Source of the DNA: Pseudomonas sp. MYb185
GTDB lineage: Bacteria; Pseudomonadota; Gammaproteobacteria; Pseudomonadales; Pseudomonadaceae
Direction: 5' to 3'
NCBI RefSeq assembly: GCF_002979975.1
Contig: NZ_PCQD01000007.1
Location: forward strand, 62,001-126,000
DNA: 64,000 nt
The translations under genes and the position numbers were made by a program. Of this stretch, positions 2,540 through 41,288 are shown in pieces. Position 1 is the first letter of the stretch. Each line of letters opens with the position of its first letter. The notes beneath the pieces were generated by a model, which searched no databases, was not told the DNA's origin, and worked only from the letters and a program-made list of their open reading frames with translations.

Positions 2540-4663
2540 TTAGCCTGCTCTGGCGACCTGTTGGCGCTTGATCTCCAGCAGGTCGATGAGGATATGGCCG
2601 GTTTCGGCGAGGAATGGATCGTCCTTGTCGTCGGTATCCTCTTCTTCAAGCGGCGAGGGCAGGCCGCTGCCGTCCATCAACGGGTCTTCCCTGTCCAGGG
2701 CGTCGAGCGGCTCTTCGCCCAGTGCCTTGCGCCGGGTATTCTCCATGGCCAGCAGTTTGTCCTCGAACTCCTTCTGCTCGGCGCGGCGCTTGGCCTCATT
2801 CAGCGGCAGATACTCACGCTCCTGCATGCTCCGGTTCAGGTCGATCCGCGCCAGGGTATAAACGAACTGCGGGTCGTTGGCGGCGCGCGCCTTGTGCCTG
2901 TCGGTCAATTGCGGGATCAGCGGCTGCAGACCGGTGTCGGCCTGGTAGCGGGCCGGCGGGATGGTATCCCAGGGCAGTGCGCGGGGCAGGCTGCTTTCGC
3001 CGATCTCGGCGGTTTCCAGCAGCGACGGGTAGGCGATGTCCGGCACCACGCCACGGTTCTGCGTGCTCTGGCCGGAAACGCGGTAGAACTTGGCCAGGGT
3101 GAATTTCAGTTCGCCATGGTTGAGCGGCTGGATGGACTGCACCGTGCCCTTGCCGAAGGTCGGTTCACCGATCACCAGGCCGCGGCCATAGTCCTGTATC
3201 GCACCGGCGAAGATCTCCGAGGCGGAGGCGGACAGGCGGTTGACGATCACCGCCAGCGGGCCGTTGTAGGCCACTCCGGCATTCGGGTCATCCAGCACCT
3301 GCACGTCGCCCTTGCTGTCGCGTACCAGCACGCTGGGTCCCTGGCCGATGAACAGGCCGGTCAGCTCGGTGGCTTCCTGTAGCGAGCCGCCACCGTTGTT
3401 GCGCAGGTCCAGCACGATGCCGTCGATGTCCTGCTTCTGCAGTTCGCCGAGCAGGCGACGTACGTCGCGGGTAGTGCTGCGGTAGTCCGCATCGCCACGA
3501 CGGTAGGCCTTGAAGTCGATATAGAAGCCGGGCACCTCGATGACGCCGATGCGGTAATCGTTGCCGTGTTCGTTGAACTCCAGCACCGAGGACTTGGCAG
3601 CCTGGTCTTCCAGCTTCACTGCCTCGCGCACCAGTGCCACCTCACGGCTGGTCATGTCGCTCGGGGGGTTGCTCGCCGGGATCACCTCCAGGCGTACCGA
3701 GGAACCCTTGGGACCACGGATCAGCTTGACCACCTCATCCAGGCGCCAGCCGACCACGTCGACCATCTCACCCTTGTCCTGGGCAACGCCGATGATGCGG
3801 TCGGCGGTGGACAGCTGCTTGCTCTTTTCCGCCGGACCGGCCGGCACCAGGCGGACGATCTTGGTGTAGTCGTTGTCGCTCTGCAGTACCGCGCCGATAC
3901 CTTCCAGCGACAGGCTCATGTTGATGTCGAAGTTCTCCGCGTTATCCGGAGACAGGTACTGGGTATGCGGGTCGTAGACCTGCGCCAGGGCGTTGATGTA
4001 GTTCTGGAAGATATCTTCGCTGCGGGTCTGGTACAGGCGCTTCTGCTGATTGGCATAGCGCTTCTCCAGCAGATCCTGGATGGCATCGGTTTCACGTCCG
4101 GCCAGCTTCAGGCGCAATACCTCATCCTTGATCTGCTGGCGCCACAGGGTATGCAGGGCCTTTTCATCGGTCGGCCAGTCGGCTTCCTCCCGGTCGATCA
4201 GGATGCTCTGGTCACCGGTGAAATCCAGTTTGTCGACGCCTTCGCGCAGCAACTGCCGGGCGTAGGCCATGCGCTGGTCGGCGCGCTGAATCTGCCGGGT
4301 GTGCATGGCGAAGCCGATGCTCAGATCGCCGGCCAGCAGCAGGTCGTCGAGCTTGTGGCGATACTCTTCGAAGGTATCGATATCGGCCGCGGTGAACAGG
4401 CTGCGCTGCGGATCGAGCTGGCGCAGGTAGGTATCGAACACTTCGCTGGAGAGCGCGTCATCCAGGCGAATGCGGTTGTAGTGATGGCGCCGCAGCAACT
4501 CCACGGTATTGAGGCTGGCGATCATCTGCTCACGGGTCGGCTGCAGACTCTCCAGATCGAGAATGGGCATCGCGCTGTCGACCGTGTCTGCAGCGAAGGC
4601 ACTGGCGCCAAGGCTGAGCAGAGCGATCAGGCAGGACTTGCGCAGGATGTTGGAAACTTTCAT
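2540..4663 (-). CDS. prc: Tail-specific C-terminal processing protease Prc (AlgO/Tsp)
   Basis: A 707-residue periplasmic serine protease of family S41. It has a signal peptide (CLIALLSLGASAFA, about 10-24), a long helical N-terminal domain, a PDZ domain near 260-350, the S41 protease domain and a charged C-terminal DUF3340-type tail. The catalytic pair is visible: Ser480 in SASASEIFAG and Lys505 in FGKGTVQ, 25 residues apart as in E. coli Prc. The start at 4663 gives the signal peptide; an open frame extends further to 5746 but only as antisense of qor. In Pseudomonas, Prc degrades regulatory proteins marked by C-terminal tails and affects alginate control through MucA. It is divergent from qor (102-bp gap). 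Confidence 0.95.
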   Translation of the reverse strand: MKVSNILRKSCLIALLSLGASAFAADTVDSAMPILDLESLQPTREQMIASLNTVELLRRHHYNRIRLDDALSSEVFDTYLRQLDPQRSLFTAADIDTFEEYRHKLDDLLLAGDLSIGFAMHTRQIQRADQRMAYARQLLREGVDKLDFTGDQSILIDREEADWPTDEKALHTLWRQQIKDEVLRLKLAGRETDAIQDLLEKRYANQQKRLYQTRSEDIFQNYINALAQVYDPHTQYLSPDNAENFDINMSLSLEGIGAVLQSDNDYTKIVRLVPAGPAEKSKQLSTADRIIGVAQDKGEMVDVVGWRLDEVVKLIRGPKGSSVRLEVIPASNPPSDMTSREVALVREAVKLEDQAAKSSVLEFNEHGNDYRIGVIEVPGFYIDFKAYRRGDADYRSTTRDVRRLLGELQKQDIDGIVLDLRNNGGGSLQEATELTGLFIGQGPSVLVRDSKGDVQVLDDPNAGVAYNGPLAVIVNRLSASASEIFAGAIQDYGRGLVIGEPTFGKGTVQSIQPLNHGELKFTLAKFYRVSGQSTQNRGVVPDIAYPSLLETAEIGESSLPRALPWDTIPPARYQADTGLQPLIPQLTDRHKARAANDPQFVYTLARIDLNRSMQEREYLPLNEAKRRAEQKEFEDKLLAMENTRRKALGEEPLDALDREDPLMDGSGLPSPLEEEDTDDKDDPFLAETGHILIDLLEIKRQQVARAG

Positions 4664-38508: not shown

Positions 38509-38805
38509 ATGGCTTATATAATCCAGAAAACCGAGATCTTTGACCGCTGGCTTTCCCGCTTGAAGGATGCAAAAGGCAAGGTTGCCATCCTGCGGCGCAT
38601 AAGCCGTGCAAAAGGCGGCAACTTGGGTGATATCAAGCCGGTAGGCGGCGATGTTACGGAGATGCGCCTGGATGTGGGGCCGGGCTACCGGCTGTACTTT
38701 ACGCGCCGCGGTGAAGCGATAATCTTGCTGCTATGTGGCGGAGACAAGCCGTCTCAGTCGCGTGACATTAAGCTGGCCAAGAAGCTGGTGGGAGAACTTG
38801 AATGA
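38509..38805 (+). CDS. HigB/RelE-type addiction module toxin
   Basis: A 98-residue RelE-fold protein of the phage-derived addiction killer type: FDRWLSRLKDAKGKVAILRR, the signature GNLGDIKPVGGDVTEMRLDV, GPGYRLYFTRRG and LLLCGGDKPSQSRDIKLAKKL. Such toxins cut mRNA at the ribosome. It overlaps the antitoxin gene by four bases (ATGA). It lies between the left operators and the cI-linked cassette, on the strand opposite to both, so it has its own promoter and can help maintain the prophage. Confidence 0.88.
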   Translation: MAYIIQKTEIFDRWLSRLKDAKGKVAILRRISRAKGGNLGDIKPVGGDVTEMRLDVGPGYRLYFTRRGEAIILLLCGGDKPSQSRDIKLAKKLVGELE

Positions 38806-39092
38806 AACCTGTGATTACAGAATTTGACCTGGCTGACTACCTCGACAGCGAGGAGATGATTGCCGAGTATCTGTCCCAGGTGCTGGCGGAAGGTGACACC
38901 GAGGAGCTGCTGCAAGCCATCGGCCATGTGGCCAAGGCTCGGGGCATGACGCAGATTGCCAAGGAAACCGGTCTGGGTCGGGAAAGTCTGTATAAAGCGT
39001 TTGCTCCTGGGGCGAAGCCGCGCTTTGAAACGGTGGTCAAGGTGATGAATGCGCTGGGTGTGGAGCTTCATGCACATCCCGTACGCCTGTAA
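38802..39092 (+). CDS. HigA-type antitoxin
   Basis: A 96-residue antidote. The N-terminal FDLADYLDSEEMIAEYLSQV is the toxin-binding part typical of the family, and the C-terminal HTH reads ARGMTQIAKETGLGRESLYKAF followed by FETVVKVMNALGVELHAHP. It neutralises the toxin encoded just upstream and probably represses the pair. Toxin-first order is that of higBA modules. Confidence 0.88.
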   Translation: MKPVITEFDLADYLDSEEMIAEYLSQVLAEGDTEELLQAIGHVAKARGMTQIAKETGLGRESLYKAFAPGAKPRFETVVKVMNALGVELHAHPVRL

Positions 39093-39115: not shown

Positions 39116-39137
39116 AAGCCCGCGCGGGCGCGGGCTT
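39116..39137 (-). terminator. Terminator of the cI-linked cassette
   Basis: AAGCCCGC/GCGGGCTT stem with a six-base loop; on the minus strand TTTTCT follows. It lies three bases after the stop of the beta-protein gene and also ends the rightward higBA transcript region. Confidence 0.75.
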
Positions 39138-39140
39138 GGA

Positions 39141-39578
39141 TTATTCGGCTGCGGTGGGAAGGGGTGGGGCAGTGCCCTCTTTTACATCCAGACCGACACA
39201 CGGTACGAGGTTTCCATCTGCGAGGATGTTAACTTTCAGATAGCCAGGCTCGTTGAAAAGATAGTTCTGGGCAATGAACTCCATTCTAATGCAGTGCATA
39301 GGCTCGCCAGCTGATGAGATGACTGGCTGCAGGTCGGCAGTATCGATATCAATATCGATGGCGAAGGACTGCTGGTCATTGAAAACAATTTCGAGCTTCG
39401 CTTTGCTGATGGGCTCTGCAGCTGGCGTATACAACTGAACCGACACGCATAGCTTGATCATGTGGAAAGGGAAGCGTGGAACCATCATTGCATCAGTGTA
39501 CATGCCGATGTACATCAGCTTGCCGTTATCCTCGCGCCGAATATCATCGGAAAATACAGCTACAGCGTAACGCTTCAT
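39141..39578 (-). CDS. Beta-rich protein, third gene of the cI-linked cassette
   Basis: A 145-residue protein. The start MKRYAVAVFSDDIRREDNGK then LMYIGMYTD resembles the DUF6941-type family as I recall it; the rest is predicted beta-strand (IKLCVSVQLYTPAAEPISKAK, SFAIDIDIDTADL). No catalytic motif is obvious. The ATG overlaps the XRE gene's stop as ATGA, so the two are translationally coupled. A terminator follows. It may modulate the adjacent toxin-antitoxin pair or act against superinfecting phage; both ideas are inference. Confidence 0.7.
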   Translation of the reverse strand: MKRYAVAVFSDDIRREDNGKLMYIGMYTDAMMVPRFPFHMIKLCVSVQLYTPAAEPISKAKLEIVFNDQQSFAIDIDIDTADLQPVISSAGEPMHCIRMEFIAQNYLFNEPGYLKVNILADGNLVPCVGLDVKEGTAPPLPTAAE

Positions 39579-39904
39579 GCCTGTTTCCTCGATGATTCCC
39601 ATACAGCAAATAGCTGATCCAGGCTGACATTCAAAGCTTTGGATAGCAGGGCGGCAGTCTCAAGCATCATGTTCTGTTTGCCGTTCTCTATGTTGGCGAT
39701 ATGCGGTTGAGAGGTGTTTACAGCCTTAGCCAGGGCCTGCTGTGATAGACCCGCCTTCAGCCTAAGCGTCTTCAGACTGGTAGGGGCGTCCTTGTAGTAG
39801 GTGTCTGCTATTTGTTGACGGGCGTTTGCCAGTGCAGCGGCTCCCTCCTGGTTGCCCTCCAGTTTGGAAAGCAGGTCGGAAAATTTGCTATGTTTCCGAG
39901 CCAT
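39575..39904 (-). CDS. XRE-family antitoxin-like regulator
   Basis: A 109-residue protein with an N-terminal helical region (MARKHSKFSDLLSKLEGNQEG) and a clear HTH_3 domain (LKTLRLKAGLSQQALAKAVN, TSQPHIANIENGKQN). Its layout is that of HigA-like antitoxins encoded after a RelE-like toxin. The start at 39904 is my choice; the frame is open to 40090, overlapping the upstream gene, and ATG 40045 is an alternative. It is coupled to the beta-protein gene by ATGA. Confidence 0.8.
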   Translation of the reverse strand: MARKHSKFSDLLSKLEGNQEGAAALANARQQIADTYYKDAPTSLKTLRLKAGLSQQALAKAVNTSQPHIANIENGKQNMMLETAALLSKALNVSLDQLFAVWESSRKQA

Positions 39905-39980
39905 AGCCGACTTAGGGCTGGGGATATCAAATGACAATACTCGCCCAGGGGTAGAGGTCGTTGGAGCTTTGGTTTTCCCA

Positions 39981-40418
39981 CTACTCTTCCATAAGCTGCC
40001 GGTAGGCTGCTTGGATTCTGAGTGAAAGATCGCTGTCGAGCTCATAGTCAAACTCTTCAATTTTGGTTGCTGTGTCTGCTTTTCGGCCAATGCCGAGAAT
40101 CACGTATGTATCGATGAGTGGCTGGAAGGCGTAAATGCACCTGTAGTCGCTGCATTCGTCGTCGAAGCCGCGCAGACGCCACATGTTCATATTGTGGATC
40201 TGTGCTTGACCCCATGTCCTCACGTTGAATTTTGCTGTTCTTGGTTGGGGGTGTGCCGGTCTTCCTCCAAATCCGTTTTGGGTAAGCCTATCCAGCAAGT
40301 CTTGGTCGCACTCCAGTTGCTCGAGCAAGGCTATCAGCAGTACGCCGGCAGGCGGGTCATGCTCCAGTATGCGAGCCAGGTCATCTGCGGCATCATCATG
40401 CACAATCAGCTCATACAC
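39981..40418 (-). CDS. RelE-superfamily toxin-like protein
   Basis: About 145 residues starting at GTG 40418 (YELIVHDDAADDLARILEHD). The middle FNVRTWGQAQIHNMNMWRLR and YRCIYAFQPLIDTYVILGIG then RKADTATKIEEFDYE fit the core strands of RelE/HigB-like toxins, here larger than usual because of an insert between helices and sheet. TTG at 40445 is another possible start. AT-rich DNA precedes it, suggesting its own promoter. With the XRE and beta-protein genes it forms a leftward cassette immediately downstream of cI. Confidence 0.65.
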   Translation of the reverse strand: MYELIVHDDAADDLARILEHDPPAGVLLIALLEQLECDQDLLDRLTQNGFGGRPAHPQPRTAKFNVRTWGQAQIHNMNMWRLRGFDDECSDYRCIYAFQPLIDTYVILGIGRKADTATKIEEFDYELDSDLSLRIQAAYRQLMEE

Positions 40419-40562: not shown

Positions 40563-41288
40563 TCATAGTCTTTGCGACCGCCAAGCCAGCAATACACGCG
40601 CATGAATAATCAGGTTGTCCAGATCCTTCCCAGTCACCTCATAGGGCGGATATGCCTCGTTGTCCGATAGCACGCGGACGCCGTTGGGCAAGATCTGTAG
40701 GCGTTTGACCATCAGGGCGCCACTGAGGCTGAACAGGTAGACACCATCAGTCGTTACGGTCTTGATGCCCTGATCGATAATCAGTGGATCGCCTGACTTG
40801 AACGTCTTGTTCATCGACTCGCCAAAGCCGGTGATCATGGCGAGGTTGTCTGGCTGGGTGCAGGAGATTCCCTGGCTGCGCATGAAGTCGAGGCTGATGG
40901 TTACGTGCCTGATGGTCTCGATGTAATCGCTGGGTAGCACCTGGCCGGTGCCCATGGCGGCCCGAACATCGTAATGCGGTATATCAATCTCGCCTGGCCG
41001 CGCCCGGGCTTTGGAGAAATTTGCAGCGATCACATTACTTTCGGAGTCCTTCTCCGCTTTGGATCTGTGCATTTCTCCTTTCCCGGTGAGCAGCCAGTCT
41101 ACGGTGCTTTCATACTCCGCAGCGATGGCGGTCAGGTTTTCATTCTTAATATTCCCTGTTTCACCAGTAAACCATTGGCTTACAGCCTGATGGCTTATGC
41201 CACAGGTCTTCGCTAGGGCTGAACGAACCTTCCGTGGCTGTACGCCTCGGGATTTCAGCAGCTGCTCAATGCGGTCTGTAATCGTCAT
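40563..41288 (-). CDS. CI-type phage repressor
   Basis: A 241-residue LexA-like repressor. The N-terminal HTH spans about 5-65 (ALAKTCGISHQAVSQWFTGE); the C-terminal S24 peptidase domain has the cleavage-region sequence AAMGTGQ, the Ser nucleophile in GFGESMNKTFKSGDPLIID and the Lys in ALMVKRLQ. RecA-stimulated self-cleavage should induce the prophage. ATG at 41288 lies 60 bases from the last right operator. It should bind the CAAGCATGCTTG sites at 38404-38458 and 41301-41349. Confidence 0.93.
   Translation of the reverse strand: MTITDRIEQLLKSRGVQPRKVRSALAKTCGISHQAVSQWFTGETGNIKNENLTAIAAEYESTVDWLLTGKGEMHRSKAEKDSESNVIAANFSKARARPGEIDIPHYDVRAAMGTGQVLPSDYIETIRHVTISLDFMRSQGISCTQPDNLAMITGFGESMNKTFKSGDPLIIDQGIKTVTTDGVYLFSLSGALMVKRLQILPNGVRVLSDNEAYPPYEVTGKDLDNLIIHARVLLAWRSQRL

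Follow-up and report, generated by a model that had tools for sequence, protein, structure and literature searches.

A cI-linked gene trio of Pseudomonas sp. MYb185 as a candidate tripartite toxin-antitoxin module with a DUF6941 protein in the place of SecB

Introduction

This paper describes a cassette of three genes, here called A, B and C, which lies behind a cI-like repressor gene on a stretch of DNA from Pseudomonas sp. MYb185 (contig NZ_PCQD01000007.1, positions 62,001 to 126,000). The whole stretch of 64,000 nucleotides (nt) was analyzed and is referred to as the window; its own numbering is used for its features. In phage lambda the place directly downstream of cI is occupied by rexAB.

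Three-gene modules of a related layout have been described. In the published toxin-antitoxin-chaperone (TAC) systems, a SecB-like chaperone serves HigBA, HicAB and MqsRA, and a short, transferable extension of the antitoxin imposes chaperone dependence (PMC5105189). Newly made capsid protein takes the chaperone of CmdTAC, upon which the antitoxin is degraded and the toxin freed (PMC11618068), and the major tail protein of lambda draws off the chaperone of HigBAC (PMC11980606). The third gene of PD-lambda-2 is required for defense and not for neutralization (PMC9519451). The gene products gp52 and gp51 of Pseudomonas phage MD8, which are homologous to those of A and B, were published as a HigB/HigA pair, and the account of that pair gives the third gene no role (PMC8508860).

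On balance, we read the cassette of the window as a tripartite type II toxin-antitoxin module that would work like a TAC, with a DUF6941 protein of predicted immunoglobulin (Ig)-like fold replacing SecB. The proposal that C is a dedicated chaperone of B is drawn from the TAC gene order, the predicted fold of A, which is near that of the TAC toxin, the presence of C behind different toxin-antitoxin pairs, and a SecB-like gene in the same slot of a HicAB locus.

Organization of the locus

The cassette and its borders comprise the following features, all on the minus strand:

40563..41288, minus strand: cI-like repressor with a helix-turn-helix (HTH) and a peptidase S24 domain, 241 amino acids (aa) (Pfam Peptidase_S24, E 1.5e-14; HTH_3, E 3.9e-6; ATG and TGA ends checked)
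39981..40418, minus strand: gene A, candidate toxin of RelE/HigB fold, 145 aa, GTG start (40418) and TAG stop
39575..40045, minus strand: gene B, candidate XRE antitoxin with an N-terminal extension, 156 aa, start inferred via a conserved ATG inside A
39923..39940, minus strand: hydrophobic strand motif VLSFDI in the N-terminal extension of B, where C or the toxin may dock
39611..39775, minus strand: HTH domain of B (Pfam HTH_3, residues 91-145, E 2.3e-15)
39141..39578, minus strand: gene C, DUF6941 protein, predicted Ig-like beta sandwich, 145 aa, ATG at 39578 to TAA at 39141
39116..39137, minus strand: GC-rich hairpin with a short T-run, probable terminator of the cassette, -16.8 kcal/mol

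The initial annotation of this DNA had described three leftward genes behind cI, the last two coupled, with a hairpin at the end; its coordinates, the coupling and the S24/HTH nature of the repressor were confirmed. The order is repressor, A, B, C and hairpin, with the toxin candidate ahead of the antitoxin candidate as in HigBA, and a Pfam scan of the window places the repressor immediately upstream of the cassette on the same strand. As read in the sequence, B and C overlap by the 4 nt ATGA (B ends at 39575 and C starts at 39578), an overlap shared by 41 of 62 relatives. The hairpin (39137-39116) is more stable than its shuffles (z -3.95); its T-run is short, and it is absent from the listing of the automatic terminator scan. 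A promoter scan gave nothing above chance. The trio is not due to chance, since the same three genes recur in distant phages, genomes and plasmids.

The start of B was placed by a codon comparison. A conserved tyrosine codon near the 3' end of A is TAT in 38 of the 45 relatives with a readable motif (17 further relatives without a match to the pattern were left out), against a TAT:TAC ratio of 130:161 for the other tyrosine codons of A (Fisher p 6e-7). This preference for TAT places an ATG for B inside A, and B most likely starts at 40045, with an overlap of 65 nt with A; with this start all three genes overlap.

Predicted products of genes A and C

Gene A has no match at cut-off in Pfam or NCBIfam, and its match in PHROGs is to a family of unknown function (E 4e-7). 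An AlphaFold2 model built on a 47-row alignment (mean pLDDT 94.1) retrieved from the PDB with Foldseek leading rows that are nearly all RelE/HigB/YoeB/ParE-type chains, all with E-values above 0.001. On structural realignment the best match was a pneumococcal toxin-antitoxin chain (Z 10.4, root mean square deviation (rmsd) 2.8, 105 residues aligned); HigB1 of M. tuberculosis, the TAC toxin (7awk; Z 9.5, rmsd 3.0, 102 aligned), lies within 1 of the top and counts as tied, and ribosome-bound RelE (4v7k) follows with Z 9.3. The match of the sequence profile to RelE in the PDB is weak (E 0.057). A is thus predicted to have the RelE/HigB (BECR) fold and would be a toxin of the ribonuclease type; the RelE-like identity given to it initially is supported by structure prediction, though unseen by Pfam and NCBIfam.

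Gene C belongs to DUF6941, as was first suggested (PF22091, E 1e-10, 42.5 bits against a gathering cut-off of 27). Its AlphaFold2 model (21-row alignment, pLDDT 94.5) is essentially all beta, and its PHROGs match is to a family of unknown function (E 1e-17). The term DUF6941 occurs in no paper of the literature searched, and the parts of the TAC and third-component literature covered by that search nowhere give the family this role. In the defense catalog PADLOC-DB 2.0.0, neither A nor C was matched at E 1 or better.

Co-occurrence of the three genes

Loci carrying C were collected as samples, not as a census, and are biased towards the motif used (labels with L and G denote loci and genomes). 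The scan of the viral_contigs collection from C gave 26 loci, that of genome_contigs was taken to the best 80 of 150 relatives, and the loci from C amount to 116, holding 98 distinct C genes; L007, a partial match below threshold, was excluded. Three of the 98 were not judged (L035 and L065 are cut off upstream, L080 is broken or cut). A pair of genes in toxin-antitoxin layout lies directly upstream of C in 87 of the 95 informative loci: an A-B pair of the window's type in 62, an unclassified toxin-like open reading frame (ORF) with an HTH gene in 18, Gp49 with an HTH gene in one, and HicB in six (Pfam confirms HicA and HicB in L102 alone; the other five were assigned by their resemblance to a single HicB). 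The counts made with the profiles for A, B and the unclassified gene include the loci that went into building these profiles. The other eight loci (five from Acidobacteria, L037, L076 and L117) have no recognized pair. Initially a check had been proposed of whether C is always next to a RelE-like/XRE pair or cI; a pair of this kind lies upstream in the 62 loci, other pairs in 25 and no recognized pair in eight.

On the tree of C, the partner types need 7 changes (minimum 4; shuffled mean 30.9; L035 counts there as pair-less although its contig stops on the upstream side, and L076 was omitted), and the HicB partners form one supported group. The five pair-less loci of Acidobacteria/Blastocatellia (L104, L107, L108, L110 and L115) have their DUF6941 gene downstream of a ligA-like gene, a label given from reading the sequence. 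Natural fusions of B and C were also considered and rejected: in L040, L041, L047 and L048 the long C frames come from reading through upstream sequence, and B has a frame of its own next to them.

Searches from A alone led to the same trio. B and C accompany A in 15 of 15 viral loci, among them five contigs not reached from C, the window's own element, near-copies (L131-L135) and L013. Among 369 genomes of the class, four were positive for A, the window's own included, and all four carry B and C; two of these (G270 and G385) are not matched by the Pfam model for C, yet carry C. A-B pairs without C, sought as comparators, were found neither in the 15 viral loci nor in the four positive genomes. 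Absence of co-occurrence elsewhere, like absence of the RelE fold from the predicted structure of A, had initially been named as a refutation; neither arose, and the trio is present in every locus found from A and in most of those found from C.

Eight phage records carry C, from Pseudomonas phages MD8, phi2, MR13 and MR15 and from Synechococcus phage MinM1. All seven Pseudomonas records with C (four phages) also have A, and every phage record with A has C; in MinM1 the S24 repressor is separated from C by an unclassified ORF and an HTH gene. The record of MR15 (L002, locus 3501-4374) splits A and B into several small genes, although single uninterrupted frames span them.

Seven plasmid records carry C, and the five examined all have the trio, four of the unclassified kind (Rhizobium, Bosea) and one of the window's type, on a conjugative plasmid of Burkholderia vietnamiensis. 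The four unclassified loci are independent of the profile for that gene and match it at E about 1e-48 to 1e-51. A plasmid search with A as a single sequence gave no match, yet pBVIE01 holds a divergent A: in its trio (L199, locus 825-2220) the record lists an opposite-strand gene across the stretch of A. Among 58 near relatives A was found in the window's own genome only, and DUF6941 was matched in 2 of 58, 4 of 369 and 2 of 398 genomes; such sparse matches indicate a sporadic and mobile module.

In the 18 unclassified pairs the first gene was called as an ORF of about 160-230 aa that looks toxin-like on inspection; Pfam matched none of the five members submitted to it (L004, L028, L095, L096 and L101). 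Sixteen of the 18 loci are profile-positive, 13 of them being the profile's own rows and the other three (L095, L096 and L004) weak matches; in L031 and L089 the first gene was assigned by position only. Of 17 second genes submitted to Pfam (all but that of L112), 16 have an HTH, below cut-off in L004 and L091, and that of L089 has none. Compared with A by profile, the unclassified gene matches weakly (probability 6%), and we therefore assign no RelE fold to it. It was found in 6 of 240 genomes, with C adjoining in four and the contig ending too early in two (L165 and L167), and no paralogues without C were found in nine genomes searched. The family, of about 160 aa and with the motif VWELKT..R.FGWF, is followed where the sequence allows by a tailed HTH gene and DUF6941, and was seen upstream of C in L088, L091, L098, L100, L101, L103 and L112, in the plasmid loci L198 and L200-L202, and in others.

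The extension of antitoxin B

B is a candidate XRE antitoxin and a probable autorepressor. With the start at 40045, 90 residues precede its HTH domain. Throughout 62 relatives this extension comprises a segment rich in Ser/Thr, a short hydrophobic strand, a segment rich in Pro and a portion that looks helical. In 46 of the 62 the best beta-prone window of six residues is found 57-63 residues ahead of the HTH (shuffles: mean 9.5, maximum 21 in 1000 rounds), and the same holds for 32 of 45 non-redundant sequences (shuffles: mean 7.0, maximum 15), a conservation of position to which common descent contributes too. Among 19 phage records matching B, seven cover the extension, and A and C are present in all seven (four phages); eight of the remaining 12 are listed, and these match the HTH only. 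No two-gene relative of the window's own branch was found with which the extension could be compared.

Antitoxin tails in HicB loci

HicB supplies such two-gene relatives. The tail behind its ribbon-helix-helix (RHH) domain was counted from alignments in 43 of 48 HicB loci; dropped were L141 (which has C and no recognizable RHH), L150, L151 and L175 (RHH not aligned) and L154 (no HicB). Long tails of 39-67 residues occur in 11 of the 43, and every one of these genes precedes a candidate third gene: DUF6941 in seven, DUF6941-like in two, SecB-like in one and DUF3467-like in one. DUF6941 follows 7 of 11 long-tailed HicB genes and none of the 32 short-tailed ones (at most 21 residues), whose neighbors were tested for DUF6941 only (p 1e-5). 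Within the 27 usable loci that were not chosen through C, it follows two of six long and none of 21 short tails (p 0.04), and four of the six if divergent DUF6941-like genes are counted (p 0.0009). Without the broken short-tailed genes L170 and L172, the three values become 1.5e-5, 0.05 and 0.001. As the sequences are related, all these p values serve as guides only.

Four of these loci stand out. L174 (943-1344, minus strand) and L177 (910-1329, minus strand) hold the divergent DUF6941-like genes behind long-tailed HicB (PF22091 E 0.002 and 0.008, below cut-off), with large neighboring ORFs that read like ABC exporter/type I secretion genes, a label from sequence reading. In L176 (1055-1366, plus strand) a DUF3467-like gene (E 0.002, below cut-off), perhaps of another third-component family, follows a HicB with a 39-residue tail. 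L195 (1462-2429, plus strand) has a HicB with a 52-residue tail and then the SecB-like gene (PF02556 E 0.0015, below cut-off), whose only PDB match is Rv1957 (E 0.4); it resembles a classical HicAB TAC of the same class of bacteria.

Position behind the repressor and neighboring genes

Of the 19 informative phage or viral representatives, 10, the window included, have a same-strand S24 repressor as the direct upstream neighbor of the cassette, and in four more one lies 1.2 to 2.2 kb upstream of A. Among informative genome representatives the direct arrangement was found in three of 67, a count that excludes L094 and L100, whose matches are of B itself. The S24 profile was built from four repressors, so that other repressors, and those without S24, may be missed. 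The modules of MD8, MR15 and MinM1 are directly behind the S24 repressor, as is that of phi2, a near-copy of MD8 here. The initial annotation had placed the cassette in the rex position: this describes the window correctly and is not general. The place behind the repressor is common in phages and is not a property of the module, which is mobile and often placed there by phages. No Rex family was among the Pfam, NCBIfam and PHROGs matches; the presence of a Rex model in these collections was not checked.

Across the hairpin the cassette ends tail to tail with a convergent second toxin-antitoxin pair of the HI1419/HI1420 type (38509-39092, plus strand; TIGR02683 E 7e-37, TIGR02684 E 3e-37), for which no similar DNA was found in the phage collection.

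Proposed mechanism and alternative explanations

The initial claim of a tripartite toxin-antitoxin module is well supported at the level of sequence by the predicted fold of A, the XRE domain of B and the co-occurrence of the three genes. For the third protein, which had been proposed as sensor, chaperone or regulator, the comparative data favor the slot of a SecB-like chaperone. In the TAC-like mechanism that we propose, B carries an extension that would be prone to aggregation or to proteases; C would bind this extension and keep the antitoxin soluble and intact. If C were drawn away, as a structural protein of an infecting phage might do, or if C or the whole element were lost, B would be degraded and A would stop translation. 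The module, which is probably transcribed in the lysogen because of its place behind cI, could then act for the prophage as an addiction or abortive-infection module. More tentatively, and with somewhat less confidence than in the TAC-like reading itself, we suggest that DUF6941 may represent a second class of antitoxin chaperones unrelated to SecB, an Ig-like clamp that grips an exposed antitoxin strand, has been plugged onto RelE-XRE, Gp49, HicAB and unclassified pairs and, through competition for the clamp, would allow phage proteins to be sensed by prophages, plasmids and bacteria. If true, this would amount to a new class of phage-sensing modules overlooked by the defense catalog searched here. 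Of the three genes, the A-B pair is already known in MD8 as HigB/HigA, and the third gene lies outside that account.

Several results weigh against a chaperone role of C. The Pfam scan of C gives DUF6941 only, with no homology to SecB; SecB is not among the listed fold matches either, which does not exclude a SecB-like fold. The matches that are listed (UNC119, PDE6D, CARDB, CTLA-4 and others, best Z 8.0) are common Ig-like sandwiches that name no function. With no SecB relation in sequence and so commonplace a fold, chaperone activity is proposed from the position of C and the antitoxin tails. The strength of the strand in single B sequences is not clearly above that of shuffles (mean p 0.375), and only its position therefore counts as evidence. 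Of 62 antitoxins of the window's type only one has AA or VA at its end, whereas CmdA terminates in LAA (PMC11618068). The extension in this type is N-terminal and not C-terminal, and it may bind the toxin instead. In the HicB comparison, five of the seven strictly DUF6941-positive loci come from genomes picked because of C, the DUF6941-like, SecB-like and DUF3467-like third genes are all below Pfam cut-offs, and the short-tailed side speaks for DUF6941 neighbors alone. Finally, the first gene in 18 of the 87 pairs belongs to no recognized toxin family, and the eight loci without a recognized pair show that DUF6941 is not confined to toxin-antitoxin modules.

Some of these points serve an alternative that we regard as rather unlikely but the most serious of those considered, namely that the module has three components and C is no chaperone: C would be a second antitoxin, a co-regulator or a phage sensor on the A-B complex, needed for instance for defense and not for neutralization. 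The third gene of PD-lambda-2 has just that property (PMC9519451), no A was found without C, and the N-terminal strand of B could bind the toxin and not C. This explanation meets a difficulty in the variety of antitoxins that precede C (XRE with an N-terminal extension, HTH with a C-terminal tail, HicB with a C-terminal tail) and in the long HicB tails, which all precede a candidate third gene, one of them SecB-like; a C that touches only the toxin or the DNA-binding domain is hard to reconcile with both.

An immunity or superinfection-exclusion cassette in the manner of lambda rex, carried on the transcript of the repressor and devoted to keeping out other phages by means of its toxin-antitoxin character, would agree with the place directly behind the S24 repressor in the window and in about half of the phage or viral representatives. 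We consider it improbable, as few of the genome representatives share this place and the module is also found on plasmids. That A and B are an ordinary two-gene HigBA and C an unrelated cargo gene follows the publication of gp52/gp51 as a pair with no role stated for the third gene in that description (PMC8508860). It is very improbable and already disfavored: A was never seen without C, be it in the viral loci, the positive genomes or the seven phage records, B and C overlap by 4 nt in most relatives, and the pairs ahead of C include both RelE-type and HicAB ones, whose toxins are of different families.

Comparison with known systems

The cassette of the window has in common with lambda rexAB its place directly behind cI on the same strand, and differs in that the trio is often found with no S24 repressor close by. 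Pseudomonas phage MD8 has homologues of A (53% identity) and B (36.5%) in the same place behind the repressor; its third gene product, gp50, is annotated as 'putative Ig-domain containing protein' and was not counted in the pair as published. PD-lambda-2 likewise has a HigB-like gene first, an XRE-type gene second and a third gene needed for defense, whereas its second gene is an XRE-peptidase fusion and its third is related to a P4 antitoxin (PMC9519451).

With CmdTAC and HigBAC the cassette would share the trigger logic, a phage protein pulling the chaperone off the antitoxin; in contrast, CmdT is an ADP-ribosyltransferase, and both systems use SecB-like chaperones. As SecB homology was tested for and not found, the cassette is not a member of the TAC family as defined by SecB. 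Compared with the TAC of M. tuberculosis (Rv1955-Rv1956-Rv1957), its third protein is a DUF6941 protein with a predicted Ig-like sandwich and not SecB, the extension in the window's branch is N-terminal, and C would have its chaperone role by analogy. The two agree in the order toxin, antitoxin, third gene, in HigB1 being among the closest folds of A, in a third gene that is common to more than one toxin-antitoxin family, and, in the HicB branch, in the extra antitoxin tail that is present when the third gene is.

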